Positions 37,808 through 58,954 of a DNA stretch of 64,000 bases are shown piece by piece (the first letter of the stretch is position 1; each line of letters opens with the position of its first letter). The stretch lies in the NCBI RefSeq assembly GCF_009389715.1, contig NC_052395.1, positions 20,239,993-20,303,992 of the forward strand, written 5' to 3'. Origin of the DNA: Phoenix dactylifera. Taxonomy: Eukaryota > Streptophyta > Magnoliopsida > Arecales > Arecaceae. A program made the translations under genes and the position numbers. Under the pieces are notes generated by a model. It was not told the origin of the DNA. It made no database searches and saw nothing but the letters and a program-made list of their open reading frames with translations.

Positions 37808-38706
37808 GTTTTCTTGTGCGTTTTGGCAGGACCTAATGTTGGTTAGAAATTTAGAATAACTAAAGTGAGGCATATGCAATGCATAATGTTTATGAAACTT
37901 GGAGTCATAGATCTTCTCTATCCACTGTAGGTCAAGAGTGGGATATCAACAAGCCAAACACCAATTGAGCAAGGTCTAGCCCTAGGTTGGCTTCTTTAAT
38001 AATTGAAGCCGAACCTTAGGTAGCTCATTTAATTTGTAGCCGGGCTTGAGCTATACAAGAACAGCTTATGTGAAAAATCTGGTAAAAGTTTAAAATTATC
38101 CAAGACTTCTTTTGATATATTTGAAGTAATAATATTGATTATGTTTTAATTTTTTAATCGAAATACCTTTTATTCTATATTATCAAAATTAATTTATAAT
38201 AGATAATTATAAAATAATTATCTATATAAATAATAATAACTAAAATAATATATAATATATTCAAATTATTTATATACTAGTATTTTGAGTTAGTTCAAGC
38301 ATAGCTAGAAGTTAGCTTTTGAATAGATTGTCAAGAAAGGAGAAGCAAGGATGGGAGTTTGCATTTTATGTAACACTGAGTGTTCGATGTGCAATGCACA
38401 TGTTTATAGAAAATAAGATAATAAATTTCAGGGAAAGGGTATAAACGTAGGTTAGCAACGTAATTCTCCAATTAATCAAAATTTAGGGCAGGGTTGGGGA
38501 AATGTGATCCACGGAAAGTGGATGAAGAGTGGGAAAACACGTGGAAACACAAGCATCATGAAAGGCCTCATGACCAGAGTTATCGTTATAATATTAATAG
38601 ATAAAGATTAGTACTCAGCATGTGTAACACATAATTTGAACCATGATGAAACGCTTTGATTCCATGGCCACCAGGCTAATGTGGGCGTTCCCATCATACA
38701 GTATAG

Positions 38707-39374
38707 AACCATAGATATTGTCAATTTTATACCAATCATTTTAATTTTATGTTTTACCTGTTTGGTATACCTAGTAGTAAAATTATCCAATAATATATAT
38801 TATTTAGGGTCTGTTTGGGAAATTCAGTAAGTTTGGATTGGATTTCCTATAGAAATCAGACTTGCTAGCATCCATTTTCTTCAAAAATTCAGTCATAGTT
38901 TTGGTCTAAATCTCAAGGCATGTTGGACTGTATCCTCCCACAAGATTTGGTCTATAGAGGAATTGGATTGATATGGGCTTTATTTAAAAAGACTGTATAA
39001 TTTAAGATTCTATGGGAAATTTAGAGGGATTAGGCAATAAAACCATAGATATTGTCAATTTTATACCAATCATTTTAATTTTATGTTTTACCTGTTTGGT
39101 ATACCTAGTAGTAAAATTATCCAATAATATATATTATTTAGGGTCTGTTTGGGAAATTCAGTAAGTTTGGATTGGATTTCCTATAGAAATCAGACTTGCT
39201 AGCATCCATTTTCTTCAAAAATTCAGTCATAGTTTTGGTCTAAATCTCATCTATAGGCATGTTGAACTGTATCCTCCCACAAGATTTGGTCTATAGAGGA
39301 ATTGGATTGATATGGGCTTTATTTAAAAAGACTGTATAATTTAAGATTCTATGGGAAATTTAAAAGGATTAGGC
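38707..39374. repeat. Tandem duplication of a 334-bp unit
   Basis: 38707-39040 and 39041-39374 are nearly identical. Each begins AACCATAGATATTGTC and contains TTAGGGTCTGTTTGGGAAAT, a start typical of plant MITEs, and TATGGGAAATTTA. The second copy has five extra bases (TCTAT inserted before AGGCATGTTG) and a few substitutions. The unit appears to include the end of a transposable element plus its flank. Confidence 0.9.
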
Positions 39375-43100: not shown

Positions 43101-46100
43101 AAGAACCTTTTACTTGAATTATTTAATCAACAATCTTCCTATGTGCTGTACTCAGCATGCTGTAGAACATATGTTTTTATTATGACTAACCTTCATGTTT
43201 GGAAGAGCAATCATATGAATAAAGATTATTTTGATTGATACTTCGACTGTTGATTAGTGATGTTTACAAATTGTCAAAGATCAATAAGATCCGTCTTCCC
43301 TAAACTATAAAAAAATACATACAGCACAAACAGATGCACGATGCGCATGCCCCATGTTTATGTCCACACACATGCAAGCATGCTATTGCACATGCACAAG
43401 CACATAAATGCACTAGTGCACATATGCGGGCATGCACACACATATGCATATGCATGCATAGATGCATGCACAAGCATCCAAGCAGATGCAAATCCATGTG
43501 CGGACGCATGCAAAAAAACACATGCTGATTCAACCCCTTAGCACGAGAGATGCAAGTATATACATGTAACTGAAATAACTTCCAGATCTAGATAAATCTG
43601 AATAGTGTCTTTATAAACAATAACAACAATGAGAAAAAGAGTAAAAGGAGGGGAGACAGAAGAAAAGAGGGTGGAATAGATGAGGAGAAAACTGAAAAGA
43701 CAAAATTGACAATATGAAGGGAAAGAAAGAAGTCCACAGGGGGGATACATTCAATATAATATAAATATAAAAACTTTGTTACTGGTGATGGACCCATATC
43801 TGTAGGCACTCAAATATTAGACAATCTAAAGAAATATTCTTGAATCATAAAAGGATTCCCAACTTATATAGTGGATCTGGACTCTAATTTGCACAGCTAA
43901 CTCGAAATATGTCCTAATTAACCTAAAACTCCATTGTTATCAAAACTGCTTATTTTCCAAACAAATGGATAATCAAAAACCTTCCAAAAGTAGTAAATTT
44001 CATTCCGTGAAATATTGCACACAAAATTATAGAGATCACTTCAAAACACAAAAATAACGACTGAAATCCTTCTCTAACCCAACCTAGACCTAGAATCAGA
44101 ATTGCAGACAAATTCTACATAATATAATATTCCTGACCCTCTATGAAAAATAACCCCATAAATTAGTTACAGGAATGCTAGGATACATAAAGATAAAAGT
44201 ATGTAAACTTGAATTATAATATAAATTTTTGTGATTTAAGTCTTCAAATCCAAATTGTATCACAGCATGCATGGACAAATGCACAAATAGATAGACAGAC
44301 AAACAGACACAAAACAAAGCAAAGAAGCCCCACTTACACATTACTATACATGTTTCCTTTAGATTAAATCTACTTCTACATGCTCTGGTTAGAACATTAA
44401 AGTATCATGTTTTACGAACTTAGTTGCAGGATGTTTCCTCCAAATGGACCTGGAGAAACCCTCTGTTAAAATGTGAGAGATGTTTATTTGCAAACATCTA
44501 AGTTCTACTTCTTACCTTCAAAATTACTAGAGATTGTTTAATAAACTTCAAAAGGATGTCAATGTTTTTCTTTAATAATTTTTTAGTATATGTTGCAAAT
44601 GTCTTGAGTTTATTGAAAGTTCTGTCCTCATGAACAAATCTTCTTTCTCTGAAGCTTCCTCATGTGCTTGACGGTGAAGCTCGTGAATGCAGCGTCTAAC
44701 AGGAGGAGTTCTGATATTAAGAAACAAGGACTTTATCATCCTGTATAGAGGCAAAGATTTTCTATCTGCTCGAGTTGCAAGTTCAATTGCTGAGCGAGAA
44801 ACTGAGATCTGTGGCCAACAACTAAAGGAAGAACTAGCTCGAACAAATGCAATCAACTTGTTTTCTGATATTGACGAATTCCTGTACAGCACAGGCACTG
44901 TTGGAACTTATACAGAATTTCAAGACATTCAATCTAAATATACTGCTGTAAACAGTGGAATCTCTGAGGAAAAGATTCAATTCGAAGCTGAGAGAGCAAA
45001 ACTGGAGAAGGAAATTAGGAAGAAAGAACGCGAACTTTTTATTGTATTATTCGTCATCATTATAAGCATTCTTGGAAGCTATTCACAAATGGAACTTCTG
45101 ATGCAAATTTGTTTTTTTTTGTTTGTTTTTCTGATCCACAGATTAAGCGGAAGATTGAGAAGTCTGAGAAGGAGTTGGCTAAGCTTAATTCTCAATGGAG
45201 TCCCTCAGAGGAGGCTGCAGACCAGGAACTCTTGATGGAAGAGGAAAGGCAAACTTTCCGAAACATAGGTCTAAAAATGGATGAATTGCTGTTGTTGGGT
45301 ATGGAGCAAACCTAGAAACTACTTGCCTTTGTAATCTGTGGAACTGTTATTCTTTCAGCCAGTTGCTGCAATTCTTTCCTGCTGATAGATGCATCTGTAT
45401 ATTTTTTCTTTTTTTCCCCTTTTCAATATTTTAGGTTTATCTTGGTAAACTATTCTTTTCCTGAACTTATCTGGAAATTCTGGATGTAAATATAGTCATT
45501 TCTAGATTCCTCTTACAGGTAGGCGTGGTATCTATGATGGCGTAATTGGAAACATTCACCAGCACTGGAAGCATAAAGAAGTTGTAAAAGTAATTACAAA
45601 GCAGCAAGATTTTCATCAAATAACCTATACAGCACAGCTGCTTGAAATCGAAAGTGGTGGGATATTAGTTGCAATAGAGAAGCTAAGAAGTACTCATGCC
45701 ATAATTCTTTACCGTGGGAAGAACTATGGACGCCCTTTAAAGCTCCTACCTGACAATCTCCTGACAAAAAGAGAAGCTTTCCAGAGATCTATTGAAATTC
45801 AACGACGAGGGGTAATGATTGATGCATTTATGTTTTTATCTCTTTCATTGTTTATCATTTCATTATTGACTCTATTAATCTTCTTCCCCTTCTTTTTGTT
45901 CAAGTCACTCAAATACTTTGCCCGTCAGAGACAAAAATCAATCTGCGCATTGAAACAGAGAGTGGTGCGTTATTTCCATCACCTTTCTATGTCTAACTGG
46001 TTCAAGGCTATAGTTTGATTATAGCATTGGTTCGGTTAACATTCTTAGAGGACTATTTTTTATTTTGCAATTAGAACTCTGCTTTTTCTGGAAGTCTGGA

Positions 46101-48439: not shown

Positions 48440-51400
48440 TCATGGCTCTGAAGTTCCCTTTCTCGGCCTCGGGGGCATGGTTTTGGGATTGGTAAACCAG
48501 GTAGTATAGAGGAATTGCTTGTGAGATCCATCATGATTACAGATTAACCGCAGCTTCTGCCTCTCCCTCATCCATCTCAATAGTATCTTCATATGCCTTT
48601 TGCTAGTCAACCCTCTCAAACCAACACCCTGAAATAAGTTTACACAGACGACAGTTAAAGGTTGCATCATTGGCCAGCCAAATTTGGTATTATAAGAAAA
48701 ATCATTTGAACTGTTAGAAAGAAAAAAAATCACACATGATGGGAATCAACTTAACAGTACTGAAGTCAAAATTCTTTAACATCAACAGAACTCTCTTTCC
48801 TTTTGCTTCTTAAGTTCACCACATCACTGCTTCCACTCACTGCAAAAAATGTGAAGGATTTCCCGATACTCACTTCCTGAAAATGCAGTATTGATTTGAA
48901 AATGCACTCACTTAAAACTCTTTTCACCCACCTTATTTATCAAATTCTGACTCTACAAGTAGTGCCACCCTAATTACTAAGCTTGAGATATGAAGGCCAC
49001 CATATAGGGACAATTAACACGTTTATTTTATTCAGAAAAAAACAAGAACAGAGGGGAAAAGATATACACACATGCACACATAAGCAACAACAAGAAAAAC
49101 GAAAAATGAGACAATAAAGCAAATGGAATGGGTGGGAACAAAAATTATATACTGTTGTACAAAATACAGGATCCAAACGACAAACAGAACAATGCACAGA
49201 ATTAAAAGAAAAAGAGAAAGAAGAAGAGAACATAGAAATTTACGTGGTTCGGCAATGTGCCTACGTCCACGGGAGCGAAACGGCCGTAACTTTTACTATC
49301 ACCAAATAACAAGGATTACAAGATATTTATAGCTAAACCCTAACCCTAGAGTCCCAATCCCTATCAGCATCCCTGGTAAAATAAAATATTACATAATTAT
49401 CCCAAAGATAAATATATCCCGTCGCTCCGCTCCGCTCCGTTAGAATACTAGTGTACCACTCAAATAAGAATACTACTTAATATAAGCCACTTATTCTAAC
49501 AATCTCCACCTTGGCGAATATTCACCCTTTAGAAGAAAAATAACCTGGGACACCACCTGACGCTGATAGGTTGGAACACATCCTCTCTAGCACCTAGAGA
49601 AGTTAACCAAGTCCAAGCAATGCTTGAACTTGTCTGCAGTAACGGGTTTTGTCAACATGTCTGCTGCATTTTCAGAAGTGCGAATTTTCTCAAGCAATAT
49701 ATCACCGGAAGAAACCAACTCCCTGATCTTGTGATACCTCACATCTATGTGCTTGGTTCTCGCATGATACACCTGATTCTTCGCCAAATAGATCGCACTC
49801 TGACTGTTACAATGCAACTGAACTCCATTGTTTGATTCAATAGTGTTTTGCACACAACACATAAGTATTAGTATAGTAAGTAAAGTACTTTTTGAGTATT
49901 TTCATTTTTCATTTCATTTTATTTTTGATTTATATTAATAATATTTCTATTAATATGAAATATTAAATAATATTATTAAAATTGAAATAATTTAACGACG
50001 AGATTTATTGTCGTTTCTTGCATGTCTCGCGAAAGTCAGAGTAGGCGCGAAGTCTCCCAATTTGTGACCTACCATACGATCTTATATATAAAGTCAGTCT
50101 AAAATGTTCCTACTCCACCTTGCTGAACACCCAGCTCTTTGACTAATCCCGTCAACCACAATGCTTCCTTGGCAGCCTCAGCCACTGCCATATACTCGGA
50201 CTCAGTCGTAAATATTGCAACTAGAGACTGAACCATGGACCTCCAACTGATAGGCCCTCCTGCAAAAGTGAATACATAGCCTGTAGTCGACCTCCTGTCA
50301 TCCAAGTCCCCTGCATAATCTGCATCAACATACCCCACGACTGAAGGATCATCTTGCTGTCTAACAAATATGATACCATGGTCTGTAGTACTCCTCAAGT
50401 ATCTGAAAATCCACTTGACTACATCCCAATGATGTCTCCCTGGATTCGCCATAAACTTGCTCACTGCACTAACTGCATGCGCTAAATCCGGCCTAGTACA
50501 AACCATAGCATACATCAGACACCCCACTGCACTAGCATATGGAACCTTTGACATGTCTTCAATTTCTTTTTCTATCTTTGGGCACTGTGAGGTAGACAAT
50601 CTGAAATGATTCGCTAAAGGTGTGCTCACTGGCTTCGTATTACCCATGCTGAACCTCTCCAACATCTTTTGTATATAACTACCCTGAGATAACCACAATT
50701 TTCTGGAATCTCTATCCCAAGAATCTTCTTGGCCGCGCCCAAATCCTTCATGTCAAACTCTCTACTCAACAAAGTCTTCAACTTGTTGACTTCATTTATA
50801 CTCTTCGCAGCAATCAGCATATCATCCACATACAGTAACAGAAAAATAAAAGAACCATCATCAAGGCTCCTCACATAAACACAACAGTCATACTCACATC
50901 TCCTGTAGCCAATCCGAATCATGTAGGAGTCAAAACGCTTGTACCACTGCCTCGGAGACTGCTTTAGCCTATAAAGTGACTTCCTCAATTTACAGACTAA
51001 GTGCTCCTATCCAGGTTCTGAAAATCCTTCTGGCTGCTGCATGTAAATCTGCTCCTCCAACTCACCATGAAGAAAAGCTGTCTTTACATCCATCTGCTCT
51101 ACTCCATATTGTAATATGCTATCAATGCCAACACTATCCTGATGGAAGTATGTCTGACCATTGGGGAGAAAATCTCATCATAGTCAATCCCAGCTCTCTG
51201 TGAATATCCCTTTGCTACCAGACGTGTCCTGAACTTTTTTCCTTCTTTTTCTGATACTGCTTCCTTTTTCTTGAACACCCACTTGCATCCTATCGCTCTC
51301 TTCCCCTCTGGAAGCTCCACCAACTTTCATGTCTGATTTTTATTCAAAGATTCCATCTCCTCCATCATAGCACCCATCCATCTACTCTTCTTCTGGCTGT

Positions 51401-54400
51401 GAACTACCTCATGAAAAGTAGTAGAATCTCCACTGCTAGTGATTAATGCATAGGAAACCAAATCTTCGAAACCATACCTAGTTGGTGGCTTGATAATACG
51501 CTTGGGTCTGTCTGTGGTTATATTATATTGCTCTTGATCGGTTGAGGTAGAAGTCTCTGTATCCTGAACATTATTTTTCTTGACAGAACTCTCTAACTCC
51601 ACCTGCATCACCTGCTTATTGCTGCTGCAACTTTCTAGCACCTGCTTCTCTTCCTGAGTACTCTTCAATATCTCTTTCTCATCAAAAACCACATCTCTGC
51701 TGATCACCACCTTGTTTGCCTTCGGATCCCAAAGTTTGTATCCTTTCACCCCTTTCTGATACCCCAGAAAGATACACTGTCTAGACTTCGGGTCTAGCTT
51801 TGACCTCTCCTCACTAGGAATATGCACATAGGCAGGACATCCAAATACTCTCAAACCTGAGTAGTCTACCTCATTACCTGTCCATACCTCCTCTGCAACC
51901 TTACCATCTAGTGCTGCCCTCGGTGACCTGTTAATCAAGAAGCATGCCATATTCACTACCTCTGCCCAGAAGTTCTTTGCAAGCCCTGCATTTAACCTGA
52001 GACACTATGCTCTTTCAGCTATAGTCCTGTTCGTCCTTTCCGCCACATCGTTCTGCTGAGGTGTCTTGCGTACTGTGAAGTGTCTCTTAATCCCATGCTG
52101 CTCACAAAACTCTATGAACTTTGAGTCTGTGTACTCAGTCCCATTATCTGATCTGAGACATTTGACCTTTCTCCCTGTCTGATTCTTTACTTCAGCTTTC
52201 CACAACTTAAACTTGGCAAACGTTTCTGACTTGTGCTGCATGAAGTATACCCAGACCTTTCTCGAGAAATCATCAATAAAAGTTACGAAATATGTATGTC
52301 CACCCCGTGATGCTACTCTGACTGGTTCCCAAACATCTGTATGAATATAGTCAAGAATACCCTCTGTCTTGTGCGTGGCAGTCCTGAATTGAACCTTGTT
52401 CTATTTTCCAAGAACACAATACTTGCAAAAATCCAGTTTGCAAGTTTTAACACCCTACAAAAAATTTCTTTTATACAGTTCCAGCATACCACGTTCACTC
52501 ATATGACCCAAATGCATATGCCACAAAACTGTATTATCAGACTCAAGACTCTGCAGCAGCAACTCTACCTACAACAGTAGTATCTATCAACCTGTAGATG
52601 TTTCCTGCTACTTTCTGCCCCTTCATCACTGTCATAGCACCTCTACTAATCTTCATTACTCCATCTTGAGACTTGTAACAAAACCCATTAGAGTCTAAGG
52701 CACCCAATAAAATTAGATTATTTCTCAAATCTGGAACATGTCTAACATCACACAACGTTCTAACCACACCATCAAACATAGTAATTCTGATATTCCCTAT
52801 TCCAATGACTTTGCAAGATGCATCATTATCCCTCAAAATGGAACCAGAATTAACTAACCTGTAGGTGTCAAACCAATCTTTATTGGGCGTCATGTGATAG
52901 GAACATGCTGAATCCAGAATCCAAGAATCAGCGAGATGATCTGAACTGGACGAAACTGAAAGTATGTCACCGTCACTGCTCTCTGTATCTTCTTTCACTA
53001 TATTTGCAGACTTGGACTCTTCAGATCTGTCATCATCTTTATCCTTCCTTTTTTCCGGACAATTCCGCTTTATGTGACCCTATTTTCCACACTTGTAGCA
53101 CGTTATGCTCTTCTTTTTCCTGGATTTAGACCGAGATTTACTGCGATTTGATCCATTCCTTGTGTTGCTTCTTCCACGCTCCTGGTTACCCTTCACCACT
53201 AAGCCTTCTCCTTGAGAACTCTCAACACTGGCTTTCTTCCTCTGATGAAAACCTAACAAGGCTCCAATGACGTCCTCTAACTCTAGGGTCTCTTTTTCCC
53301 ACGTCAAAGTTGTAACTAAATTTTCGTACGTAGGAGAAGCGGATAAAGAATGCAATAACATCAACACTTTGTCTTCGACTTCGAACTTCACATCAACTCG
53401 CTGCAGATCACTGATAATCTGATTGAACACGTTGATATGTTGGCTTAAATCAGCACCCTCTGTCATCTTAAGACCGTACAGTTTCTGCTTAAGATAGAGC
53501 TTGTTCGTCAACGACTTGGACATGTACCGACTCTCCAATTTTGACCAAATTGCTGCCGGCGATTCCTCGTCCATGACATAATACATCACGTCATCAGCCA
53601 GACAAAGTCGTATATTTGAAACAGCCTTCGCCTCCAATTCCTTGCACTCTGCATTACCCATGTCATCTGGTTTCTTTTCGTACAGGGCCTTTACCATACC
53701 CTGCGATACTAACAGATCCTTCACCCTCCTCTGCCATAGCCCAAAATTTCCAGTTCCATCGAACTTTATCACATCAAACTTCGCAGAAGACATCCCTGCA
53801 ACTTTATCTTTTTTTTGCAAAATAAAATAGAGAAAAATAGGATCTGATGAAAAATAAGAGAAAATGCCAAACACGCCCCTCCTCTCAGGATCTGTCCACG
53901 GACGGCCGCAGATGCGCGTTGGCAGGTGCAGACGGTGCTCCTCCTCCGAGTCTATCCACGTGCGGCAACGGGCGCGAACGCACGGGAGGTCCTCTTCCCT
54001 GGTTCTGGCCACGAACGGCAGAGATCCTCTCCTCCCTTTCACACGGGATCAGGCGCGTGACGATGGATGCGGACGCTGATGGGAGGACATGGCGGTGGAG
54101 ACAAACGGCTCCTCTTCTCTCGGCTGGATCTAGGTGCGTGACGGTGCGCGACAATGGAAGGACACGGCGGATCTCCTCTCCGCCGCTGAATCAGAATCTC
54201 CTCCTTTGTTCACCTCCAGCCGGTCGTCACAGGGGCCTTTCTCCTTCCTTCCGCTCGGGAGCTGTCGGAAGAACAGAAGACGAGAACGTTTTCGGCTTTG
54301 GGAAGAAGAAAACGTCAAAACCAAAAACTCCCCCTTCTGCGTGAAGAAAACCACCCACGGCTTGGGAAGAGGGCCTTGGGAGAGAGGACACAAACCCCTC

Positions 54401-57400
54401 AGCCCCCCACGTGAAACAGAGAAAACAAATCTCCCTTCCCTTCACGTGAACCACCTCCCACGGCTTGGAACAACCCCTTTCTCTTCTCTTGGTTCTTCAC
54501 GGCGTTTGAGAGAGAACCCACCGGGAGAAAACAAAAAAACAAACCCTCTTGCGTTTCCTCATCTTGGGAGAAGATGCCTCTGATCTCCCCATGACGTGAC
54601 CTTCCATGGCACAATAGAACCCACGTGAAGAAGGAAACCACCCACGGAATCCTGATGCTCTGATACCAATTGTTGTGCAAAATACAGGATCCAAACGACG
54701 AACAGAACAATGCACAGAATTAAAAGAAAAAGAGAAAGAAGAAGAGCACAGAAATTTACGTGGTTCGGCAATATACCTACGTCCATGGGAGCGAAACGGC
54801 CGTAACTTTCACTATCACCAAATAACAAGGATTACAAGATATTTATAGCTAAACCCTAACCCTAGAGTCCCAATCCCTATCAGCATCCCTGGTAAAATAA
54901 AATATTACATAATTATCCCAAAGATAAATATATCCCGTCGCTTCGCTCCGCTCCGTTAGAACCAGAGTACCACTCAAATAAGAATACCACTTAATATGAG
55001 CCACTTATTCTAACATATACCTACTTAGATATATTTGTAAGTGAATGCATGCATAGAGAGAGAAAGAGAGAGAGAGAGAGACTATGCTCTAAAGCATTAA
55101 AAAGAATATTCCTTCTAATGCATCAAACACTTATGAAGAAAGTATTCTTCTGAAACGCTTAAAGACCAGAAAACTGAAGAATAACATATTCCAAGGGAGA
55201 AACCAAACTGTTAATCATAATCTACACTACTTAAAATGCCTAAAAGCAAAAACATAAACCATCTAGAAGGTTTATTACAAAGAGTGGTCATGAAACAGAT
55301 GGTTAACAGTGAATTTGGTTTTAAGAAAAATTATAATGATCCATATAAATCATTAATCCAAGCCCTCGTCCAATTGATAACCTCACAATTTCCTCATCTT
55401 TAATGACCTTATCCTCCATCACTGTTTTGCTTTTAACTTCAGTCTTGCCTTTCTTTTTCTTGAGCCCTCAAGACAACTCAAAGTCACAATTCCTACTACA
55501 AGTTTTTTAAATCTATTTTGTGCATGCCCATCCCAACTCATGGGTCTCAAAAAATCAATCTTTAACTAATTAACTCATATAGTTCCAATATGTTATTATT
55601 TCTAACCTTAATTTGTTTCAATACTTAACCTGCTTTAGTATTCTTCTAGCTGCACTCATCTAACATGATTGGACCTACCTTTTTTTCCCCCAACATTCTT
55701 TCTGATCAATGCAGCGTCACAAGCCTACTTGTTTCTGATAAATTACTTTTATTAAGCATCAAAGCAATATACTGACACCAGGATGTACATCTCCACTACA
55801 TGCATCCTGGTAAACAAATTATGTGTCTTTGCTTAGATTTCAATTCTTTGCATAAAATATATAAAATACAACACAGTCATTTCAACCAATTTTTCTTATA
55901 TGTACTTGTTTTCTATTACAAATCTACAGTTTCCTCGTCATAATTCTAATTTCATGATCAATTTATTTTCCATCCCATTACCTAACAATAGAAGTATGCA
56001 AGAATCATACACCGTGGCCTCATGAATATCAACAACATCAACTTAGACATGTATATTGTATAAAAAGGATATCGACTAAGGGCTTATCTGTATTGTTGGC
56101 AAAATATAACCAAAAATTGATTATCATGCCACTTTTAATGCCGGCCACCCCTACCTCGTACACAGTTCAACACTTCAACTACTTTTCAAATACCCTTCAT
56201 GCACCAGTTTCTTCCTTGTCCCACCAAATTATTACTCATTGTATCCAACCACATGCTTGTCAAGGTCACTAAGAATGCGTCTAGCTTCTTTCTCTTCTTC
56301 CTAAATTGCATTCATGAGTTCTCAAAGCAAGACGGTGATCCCTGTGATGGATCATCCTGGCATAAATTCAGGTTAGTCAGAAAAAATGTTGTAATTCTTC
56401 TTAGATTAAAGCTTCATATTAGTCAGAAAAAAATTATAATTTTTCTTAGCTTAAGCTTCCTTTCATGTTATAATCTGGCTTATAATTTTAGGTTCACGAG
56501 TACTGTACAGTCTGTACTATTATAAAATCACCATTAAACTAATAAATATGGTCATTTCTACATCAATAATTCAGAAGTACCATTATATTCGTGATAGAAT
56601 CTGAAAGCTATTTGATCAAATTAAACTAGCTTCTCTTTCAATTCATCAAACCACAGATTGCATTTCATCTAGCTTCCACACTATTGCAGCTTCCCAAAGC
56701 TGTCTCCATTTAAATTGACAATATATCAAGAGTTAATGAGGGTACAACTACATATGCAGCCTCCCTAATTATGCTTCTTCTGATAAACTTATCAAAGCAA
56801 GGCCCTATCCGGCAACTCTTACCATCTTTCACCTAAATTCTATTAAACACAATATTGCAATGATTTGATCTATTTCTCCTTTACTCACCGTTGATCTAAA
56901 TCTAACATAATGATCACTCAAAGCAGCACAATTAGTACTCTTGCAGCCCATTATGACTTTTTATTATATTTCAAAATCCTGTATATCATATGTTCATCCA
57001 TTTTCTCTGTGACCACATTTTCTGATTTTGGAAGCCAAATAGCCACCACCAAGTTCTTTGGTACACCATACTTATGCATAGATTTCTCAGAACTTCTTAA
57101 AAGATACTTTGGTATATGATCCCACATGACATTTAGTGCAGTAATTAGAAGCCAAAATTTCATATTTGAAAATTTTCTACAAATTCTCATACAGTCCCTA
57201 TGAATTCACTACTGAAACTGTAGGAATCCTATAATCTCTCCCTCTTCTTTTTTGCATCAAGTGTTCAAAAATGTTCAACTCCACTAACATGTCTAGGAGG
57301 GCCTTATGTTTTCCTTATAACACCTCACCATTTATGCCTATCAATCTCTCTCTATCTCTCTCTCCCCTGATAACAGGAGAAAACAATCAATATACAACCC

Positions 57401-58954
57401 ATTTGATCCACTCTAACAAGTTAGTGAGACTCTTCCTAATATATGGGGTTGAGAAAGCTAAATTACACACATTACATGCTAAAACATGTAAGCTCTCATG
57501 TGCTTGTCCCACATGTGTTCATAAGTTAGCATTTCCTTATCATGAGTGCACCTAAAACTTACTCTAATTAAGTGTCTGTTCCATCTTTTAGGGCGCGATA
57601 GTGGTTTTTCGCTAGAGCATCAATAACCATTAACATTAAATGATAATAGATCAGAAAGCTTAAAGTCATTATTTGGTATAGTTTTCTCAATAAGCACGCT
57701 CCTCAGATCGTTAGAACCTGTTTGGATGTTGGGTAAGTTATCCACTGATATATTGGCCCGGTGAGGTGATGAAGCAGAAAGAGAATCAAGTTTGCGCAAT
57801 AGGAAAAGGTTTTGGAGGAGTTTAGGAGCACATTCTCCCTGATCTTTTCGGATAATTGATTCCAATAGAAAGGTGGTTTACAATATCTCTAAACTTTAGG
57901 GATAATAAATTATTTAGCTCCCAAGGATCCAATGTATTCTTCCTAAACAGGACTCCTCACAATACTTTGCGTCACCGTACACATAATTTATCAGAGAATA
58001 ACTTATGCAAACATCCAAAACGGCCTTGGTTGCTGATTATTTCATAATTTTAGCTCGTCTGTTTCTTTTTTTTTTTTTAAAAAAAAGGTAGTAATTTATA
58101 AGATGATAAAAAGCTCACCACATCACCAAGCATCAAAAATACTGTTGATAAAACTCCAACAAAAGCACTTAGCCAAGTAAGAAATAGCCCACGAGCATGC
58201 GATGTGACTAGCAAACTCTAAAATACCCAACATGAATTGCTCTAGCTTTATCTACTTACTAAGTATGAAATCTATCAACAATCTCGTTCTTCTGATGCTC
58301 ACCTTGAATGGTAACAGCTCTAGCTACATCCAGAGCCAGAGGCATTACAATTATAACTCCTTGCTTGTTTGATTTTGACACAGTATACTATGGCGACTTC
58401 TATTTTGTTTCTTACTCCTTAAACTTGCAGCTTGCAAGATACCTATACATTTTCCCATATACATATCATACATCACTCACATGGAGTATGCGGTGACAAC
58501 AACTCGATTGTCAAACCCCCTCCATAAGCCTTAACGAATCTAACACCCTAAATCGGAAACAAGCATGATTGTTTATTTGCAACCTCAATTAATCATAAGC
58601 TCCATCAAATGTGTCGACATTATCCGAAAAGATTACTAAATTATGGCCACCTCAAACTTGCCTTATGAAAAAAATCACATTTTGAAGGGATGGGCCACAA
58701 GAGGTTCATGTTGAAACGAAATCAGCGATTAGAAAAGAAAAGGAAGTGTAAGGGAGGAGGAGGAGGAGGAGGAGAGAGAGAGAGACCTTGAGGTGTTCCC
58801 AGGTTTCAGCGATGGTGAGAGGGCCGTGCTCCTTGACGATGTCGAAGATGGTGCGGCTAACGGTCTGTACCTGTTCAGGCGGCATCCGTGGCTCGATAGG
58901 CTTCATCTTCGGTTTCGGCTTCTTCGCCATCCACCGGGCTAGCGTTGCGAACAT
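48440..58954 (-). CDS. Small conserved plant protein, probably organellar; two exons with a ~10-kb intron
   Basis: Exon 1 is 58787-58954 (56 codons, product begins MFATLARWMAKKPKPKMKPI, then VQTVSRTIFDIVKEHGPLTI). Exon 2 is 48440-48628 (62 codons plus stop, with GLTSKRHMKILLRWMRERQK and HKQFLYTTWFTNP). The donor is AAG|GTCTCT, the acceptor TTTCAG|GGTG, and phase 0 is kept, giving 118 aa. The two halves join within a winged-helix-like segment: HGPLTIAETWEHLK leads into GVGLRGLTSKRHMKILLRWM, as in homologues I remember from other plants. The basic N-terminus suggests mitochondrial targeting. It may correspond to the Arabidopsis mitochondrial protein NOXY2, but this is recollection only. In-frame ATGs further upstream exist up to 59281 and look unconserved. 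The intron contains the whole of copia-2, inserted in the same orientation as the gene. Confidence 0.75.
49153..49501 (-). repeat. copia-2 3' LTR
   Basis: 349 bp, plus-strand TGTTGTACAAAAT...TTATTCTAACA, with a GCTCCGCTCCGCTCC run near 49425-49438. It matches 54671-55015 along its whole length. Confidence 0.95.
49587..49825 (-). pseudogene. copia-2 RNase H C-terminal part, separated by the insertion
   Basis: The minus-strand frame resumes with NGVQLHCNSQSAIYLAKNQV and continues through TKHIDVRYHKIRELV and ADMLTKP to a stop at 49587. It is the direct continuation of the RNase H sequence that stops at about 50115, showing that 49826-50112 was inserted into a once continuous domain. Confidence 0.85.
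49826..50112. other. Insertion in copia-2 RNase H containing chloroplast-derived DNA
   Basis: About 285 bp between the two halves of RNase H. The right part is the 3' end of chloroplast rps19. The remainder (about 49860-49990) is very AT-rich and could be the plastid spacer that follows rps19. The outermost 30-40 bp on each side match neither and may be filler or target-site material. This is a nuclear plastid DNA fragment (NUPT) within a retrotransposon. Confidence 0.7.
49992..50081 (-). pseudogene. rps19: Chloroplast rps19 3' end (NUPT fragment)
   Basis: The minus strand reads DRMVGHKLGDFAPTLTFARH then ARNDNKSRR and a TAA stop. That is the last 29 codons of plastid ribosomal protein S19, whose usual C-terminus is DRMVGHKLGEFxPT...RNDNKSRR. 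Just upstream, TTTATATATAA resembles the preceding IYIT codons with a small deletion. Glu-to-Asp and Gly-to-Arg changes relative to the usual plastid sequence fit nuclear decay. The fragment lacks a start and is non-functional. Confidence 0.85.
50115..53079 (-). pseudogene. copia-2 protease, integrase, reverse transcriptase and part of RNase H, multiply broken
   Basis: Segments appear in copia order on the minus strand. Protease is WILDSACSYHMTP near 52880-52920. The C-terminal integrase core has SDNGTEYTDSKF near 52100-52170 and PQQNDVAERTNRT near 52020-52065. Reverse transcriptase has KGYSQRAGIDYDEIFSPMVR near 51160-51225 and catalytic YVDDMLIAAK near 50800-50830. RNase H begins with the YVDADYAGDLDDRRS segment near 50285-50335. 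Stops lie near 52005 and 51325, with frame changes near 52542, 51100 and 50690. Confidence 0.85.
53080..53793 (-). pseudogene. copia-2 gag, stopped in the zinc knuckle
   Basis: The UBN2-type gag begins MSSAKFDVIKFDGTGNFGLW at 53793 and keeps frame to 53080. The frame is interrupted by a TAG at the position between CYKCGK and GHIKRNC of the CX2CX4HX4C zinc knuckle. Downstream sequence continues in the same frame, so this is a nonsense change rather than a frameshift. The long GC-rich leader (about 53800-54655) contains no conserved coding. Confidence 0.85.
54671..55015 (-). repeat. copia-2 5' LTR
   Basis: 345 bp, plus-strand TGTTGTGCAAAAT...TTATTCTAACA, adjacent on its inner side to the primer-binding site at 54657-54668. 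Confidence 0.95.
55016..58786. other. Remaining intron sequence of the small-protein gene
   Basis: AT-rich intron DNA on the exon-1 side of copia-2, with short chance ORFs only. A short AG microsatellite lies at 55056-55081. A MITE with good terminal inverted repeats lies at 57714-58027. Confidence 0.5.
57714..58027. mobile_element. MITE with terminal inverted repeats
   Basis: The left end is AACCTGTTTGGATGTTGGGT followed by AAGTTATC. The right end, reversed, is AAGGCCGTTTTGGATGTTTG followed by CATAAGTTATTC. The GTTTGGATGTT and AAGTTAT words match across both ends. It is about 314 bp with no transposase. Confidence 0.6.

Follow-up and report, generated by a model that had tools for sequence, protein, structure and literature searches.

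In this study, we identified a 284-bp plastid-derived insert inside one copy of a copia LTR retrotransposon that itself lies in an intron of a nuclear gene of date palm. The window, that is, the whole stretch of 64,000 nucleotides analysed here, corresponds to C4:20239993-20303992 of a 773-Mb assembly, in which stretches reading N were not visible to the searches. The insert occupies positions 49828-50111 of the window (minus strand), and its best match elsewhere in the genome is another plastid-derived fragment, at C2:20364950. Taken together, our data suggest that a break in the integrated copia was probably repaired by end joining, with the 284 bp coming from a nuclear plastid fragment, either that at C2:20364950 or a sister of it. 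An event of this kind is ordinary; its anatomy is unusually clear.

Translation of the minus strand at 49995-50081 gave 29 residues, DRMVGHKLGDFAPTLTFARHARNDNKSRR, followed by a stop codon at 49992-49994; the last 29 codons and the stop codon of plastid rps19 thus occupy 49992-50081. The piece matched the C-terminal end of ribosomal protein S19 in both Pfam PF00203 (profile positions 63-81 of 81, E = 3e-5, 24.2 bits against a cut-off of 27 bits) and NCBIfam rpsS_bact (positions 64-92 of 92, E = 3.3e-8, 33.7 bits against a cut-off of 89.35), both scores lying below the curated whole-protein cut-offs, as is to be expected of a piece of only 29 residues. An earlier note on this DNA, made from its letters, had recognized the rps19 tail, and the profile matches bear this out. 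The two strongest PF00203 matches in the genome, on C8 and C16, were taken for putative other S19 genes. At its rps19 end, the insert begins with 30 bases, AGGAACATTTTAGACTGACTTTATATATAA (50082-50111, minus strand), that are unreadable as S19, with stops in the S19 frame shortly before DRMVG; the same scrambled stretch, except for two bases, is present in the C2 copy.

The rps19 stop codon is followed on the minus strand by an AT-rich plastid spacer (49883-49991), the putative end of the inverted repeat, and then by the psbA-side flank of the plastid junction (49828-49882). The spacer boundary was placed by the branching of other copies: at this point the copies L002 and L048 run on towards psbA, and L005, L007 and L017 run into another sequence, which we take to be the rpl22 side. 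The psbA-side flank lies within an 86-bp stretch (49823-49908) identical to a mosaic on C6, and the flank is identical to the C2 copy too. Among the fetched loci, only the C2 copy, besides the window, holds the rps19 end, the spacer and the psbA side in one piece, and the same order is backed by overlapping pieces at other loci, in agreement with the suggestion that the AT-rich tail was plastid spacer. We infer the plastid state of the sequence from these other nuclear copies. With an rps19 C-terminus, and nuclear copia and gene sequence on both sides, the insert is plastid-derived sequence in nuclear DNA (NUPT). The interval 49826-50112 given in the earlier note does locate it; the exact bounds are those stated above, with flanking repeats at 49822-49827 and 50112-50117. 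Two of the branching copies, at C15:10591574 (L007) and C15:11505227 (L005), are old plastid fragments that are nearly identical to each other, lie on the same contig and have flanks in common; from their sequences, a plastid fragment seems to have been duplicated within the nucleus.

The host copia (49153-55015) is bounded by the target duplication TATAC at 49148-49152 and 55016-55020. Alignment of its 3′ LTR (49153-49501, 349 bp) with its 5′ LTR (54671-55015, 345 bp), both on the minus strand, covered 345 bases and revealed 11 transitions and 1 transversion (K2P 0.036). Between them, pieces of gag, integrase, SH3-like and reverse transcriptase domains (50629-54048, minus strand; Pfam Retrotran_gag_2, rve, SH3_retrovirus and RVT_2) occupy separate open stretches. 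The two LTRs, the target duplication and the gag-integrase-reverse transcriptase order identify the element as a copia LTR retrotransposon. At the insert site, the two putative RNase H halves gave no Pfam match and no meaningful NCBIfam match, and the first half gave no meaningful PDB match; from its motifs and its position beside the matched reverse transcriptase, the site is presumably in the copia RNase H region.

Consecutive parts of an mL80-like mitoribosomal protein gene flank the element. The upstream exon part (58787-58948, minus strand, ending AAG/GT) matched the PDB chains 6xyw_AM (E = 4.6e-6) and 9evs_1r (mL80; E = 1.3e-5) over query residues 119-170, and the next exon part (48484-48628, minus strand, starting TTTCAG/GG) matched the residues that follow in the same two chains (E = 3.9e-12 and 1.7e-11). 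On plant mL80, the upstream stretch covers chain residues 28-79 or 32-83 and the downstream stretch 70-132 or 84-129. The copia-bearing intron is 48629-58786 (10,158 bp), and with splice sites at both of its ends the earlier placement of the copia in a gene intron stands. A piece of a CRM-domain (CRS1_YhbY) protein gene adjoins the mL80-like gene (45506-46015, plus strand). Comparison of the window with itself also revealed head-to-tail repeats at 38703-39374 (units of ~335 bp) and 2028-2201 (units of ~29 bp).

Other copies of the copia family retain the empty site. The copia flanks on each side of the insert were searched separately, and the best 40 of 700 and the best 40 of 254 candidates were scored. 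Pairing by coordinate revealed that 36 of the 40 first-side places have a partner on the other side among the matches listed. In 33 of these paired copies the two sides are 2 bases apart, and in 2 they are 3 bases apart; only in the window is the gap 292 bases. Among the matches listed, 35 of the 36 are therefore empty and uninterrupted at the site, and the only filled copy is that of the window. The junction is printed without a break in all 29 other-copy loci that were fetched, differing by 0-2 substitutions or a single deleted base. It is these printed letters that carry the point, the limit of 4 edits being non-discriminating, as the window's own filled locus (L051) passed it with 4 edits. 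That the insert interrupts a copia copy, as had been proposed, is thus confirmed, and the possibility that most family copies carry it was checked, with 1 of the 36 paired copies doing so. Travel of the insert with the element family is ruled out by the same count among the matches listed. Beside the insert (49785-49820), the host copia reads HCNSQS; the sister copies are printed mostly with GAC at that codon (HCDSQS).

A whole-genome search with 49826-50112 returned 27 places, of which, besides the window, only C2:20364950 covers nearly the whole query (93% identity over 289 alignment columns). Plastid-like sequence in the C2 copy extends beyond the shared part by ~88 bp on the rps19 side and by ~95 bp on the psbA side. 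The C2 copy is therefore not derivable from the window copy; the window piece is then either a sub-fragment of the C2 fragment or, like it, derived from a third or sister copy. The scrambled stretch ties the two together: when as many as 3 mismatches are allowed, GACTGACTTTATATATAAGATCGTATGGTAGG has exactly two occurrences in the assembly, at C2 and in the window, and the reversed control has none. For the readable form of the stretch, there is one exact occurrence and one with 3 mismatches. In translatable form it is found in full at C1:14137886 (L027), the one nuclear copy on which the full-length comparison rests, and in part at L026, up to TATATAACA, and at L041, up to TTTACC. In the earlier note, plastid DNA invaded the copia directly. 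This account fits poorly with a scrambled stretch confined to the insert and C2:20364950 and readable in full at C1:14137886; the distribution points instead to a non-plastid intermediate, probably, and most simply, an older nuclear plastid fragment, and to straight transfer from the chloroplast as unlikely. Direct insertion of plastid DNA could still account for the locus if gene conversion with the C2 fragment had afterwards supplied the scrambled stretch, or if the stretch had arisen twice. Much of the spacer does agree with the recent-looking copies L012, L046 and L081; however, two events are needed, and AAATCAAAAA, common to C2 and the window, is missing in L012 and L081, so that we regard this course as very improbable.

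Comparison with the empty sites resolved both joins. The empty site reads GGTGGAGTTCAG, and the filled site consists of GGTGGAGT, the 284 bp and TGGAGTTCAG, with zero copia bases lost. On the minus strand, a first copy of TGGAGT lies at the rps19-side join (50112-50117) and a second at the psbA-side join (49822-49827). At the place corresponding to the psbA-side join, the C2 fragment reads CAAACAATGGAGCAATACC, and TGGAG is common to both. In random joins of these two sequences, at least 5 bp of shared bases arise in 0.56% of cases per join. At the rps19-side join, there are 0 shared bases, or one T of unexplained origin. Since TGGAG also stands at the corresponding place in the C2 fragment, a true 6-bp target-site duplication is indistinguishable from 5 shared bases plus one T. 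The joins had been described as carrying unmatched bases at both sides, with filler at ragged ends. This description does not hold: the bases on the rps19 side match the C2 fragment with two differences, TGGAGT flanks both sides, and at most one T is unaccounted for. Filler DNA was ruled out by lining up the empty sites. According to the available text of PMC6215612, organelle DNA caught by end joining is marked by microhomology of 1-7 bp or by blunt joins. Set against the C2 fragment, the insert has TGGAG at one join and 0-1 bp at the other. Nor do the joins look like an assembly artefact in which unrelated reads were put together: behind the insert, the sequence resumes with the copia base that follows directly in the empty site, which is not expected of a misjoin, and the nearest copy is only 93% identical, where exact identity to some other place would be expected of a misjoin. 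We consider such an artefact hardly credible.

Between the insert and the C2 copy, 13 of 282 positions differ, compared with 12 of 345 between the two LTRs, which is not a significant difference (Fisher p = 0.54); judged by these counts, the insert is not measurably younger than the copia landing. For substitution rates between 2.6e-9 and 1.3e-8 per site and year, the LTR divergence would put the copia landing at about 1.4 to 6.9 million years ago. The lack of a significant difference between the two divergences is also what would be seen if the insert had arrived with the copia, the reverse transcriptase having switched at TGGAG onto a putative RNA of the C2 fragment or a sister and back again. 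The privacy of the insert to the window copy among the 36 paired copies, the short run of shared bases at one join and the rps19 sense, which is that of the copia, are likewise consistent with such a capture. However, the agreement in orientation has a one-in-two chance, and the switch on the rps19 side would have taken place without a shared base, leaving this course improbable. If it were true, plastid relics could spread in the nucleus as passengers of retrotransposon particles and the LTR clock would date the capture.

Some features of the sequence do not fit one clean duplication. The spacer groupings conflict: the window agrees with C3 at 150/153, C2 agrees with C3 at 135/141, and both C at 134 and AAATCAAAAA are common to the window and C2. 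In addition, all 13 substitutions between the window and C2 lie outside the last ~85 bp, which has a chance of ~0.8% if substitutions are uniform. A lost organelle intermediate or gene conversion would explain better than a single clean duplication both the conflicting sites and the substitution-free ~85 bp. The scrambled rps19-psbA sequence may, for example, once have been carried by a variant plastid or, as an insert of plastid origin, by the mitochondrial genome, with the C2 and C4 fragments being independent transfers; the conflicting sites and the substitution-free end would then be snapshots of an evolving organelle sequence. In the available text of PMC3360038, 10.3% of date palm mitochondrial DNA is plastid-derived, and psbA and trnH are among the genes of plastid origin, as this course would have it; rps19 is absent from the plastid-origin genes named there. 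The mosaic on C6 joins a 124-bp plastid piece of the same region to seven mitochondrial pieces, which means that mitochondrial and plastid DNA do enter together in this genome. Against an organelle origin, a first-look search of the mitochondrial contig C2390 (715,001 bp) gave no match to the insert or to the scrambled stretch, and a working plastid should not carry a stretch that breaks the S19 frame. On balance, a source of this kind seems unlikely, though worth keeping in view.

The source sequence was thus not found by the first-look search of the one mitochondrial contig, C2390, and a mitochondrial identity of the insert was rejected for want of a match there; the S19 match on this contig was judged, from its sequence, to be mitochondrial. 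Palm-like plastid sequence outside the genome was sought in the plasmid collection (distant mode), the viral contigs and the genome contigs, with no match. In the C6 chain (L046/L008, C6:9336567-9337317), the mitochondrial pieces are 63-83 bp long and 98-100% identical to C2390, and the plastid piece is 98% identical to the C2 copy. The chain lies directly behind what we take, from its motifs, to be the RNase H end of a different copia-like element.

Repair of the integrated copia by end joining therefore remains the reading that we favour. A double-strand break would have struck the RNase H region of one copia after its integration, and end joining would have taken in 284 bp copied or broken from a nuclear plastid fragment, that at C2:20364950 or a sister. 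The donor would thus have been nuclear rather than a lost mitochondrial copy, and the event would have been a break repair that followed the copia landing. The order of gene, copia and insert proposed earlier is supported by the insert being private among the 36 paired copies, which suggests that insertion came after the copia landing. No hint of a function for the insert came up in these analyses.

In a limited search of the best-ranked open-licence literature, no earlier description of this insert locus of date palm was found. The available text of PMC3989485 includes a methods line on nearby transposable elements, and that of PMC12572781 reports an association of NUPTs with retrotransposons and suggests post-insertion duplication of NUPTs. 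How the many NUPTs of plant genomes divide between fresh transfers and duplicates of older nuclear fragments is currently debated (PMC12572781, available text). One case can be told apart here by means of its empty site, a candidate donor, the LTR clock and a shared scar that is diagnostic. The locus is a good calibration example and involves no new mechanism.

The insert resembles NUPTs end-joined at double-strand breaks in being a short plastid-derived piece with shared bases or near-blunt joins and no loss of target sequence. It differs from them in that the nearest relative found is another plastid fragment in the nucleus, which has the scrambled stretch in common with it, and not the readable plastid form. 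It is similar to the mosaic "numins" in the available text of PMC6215612 only through its C6 relative (L046), in which seven mitochondrial pieces are chained to one of plastid origin; the window insert, unlike numins, is a single plastid-derived piece. As in the post-insertion duplication suggested in PMC12572781, so far as its available text goes, one nuclear fragment apparently gave rise to another elsewhere. That text points to copying by retrotransposons as a route by which NUPTs spread, whereas here the retrotransposon is the landing site, the other paired copies being free of the insert.
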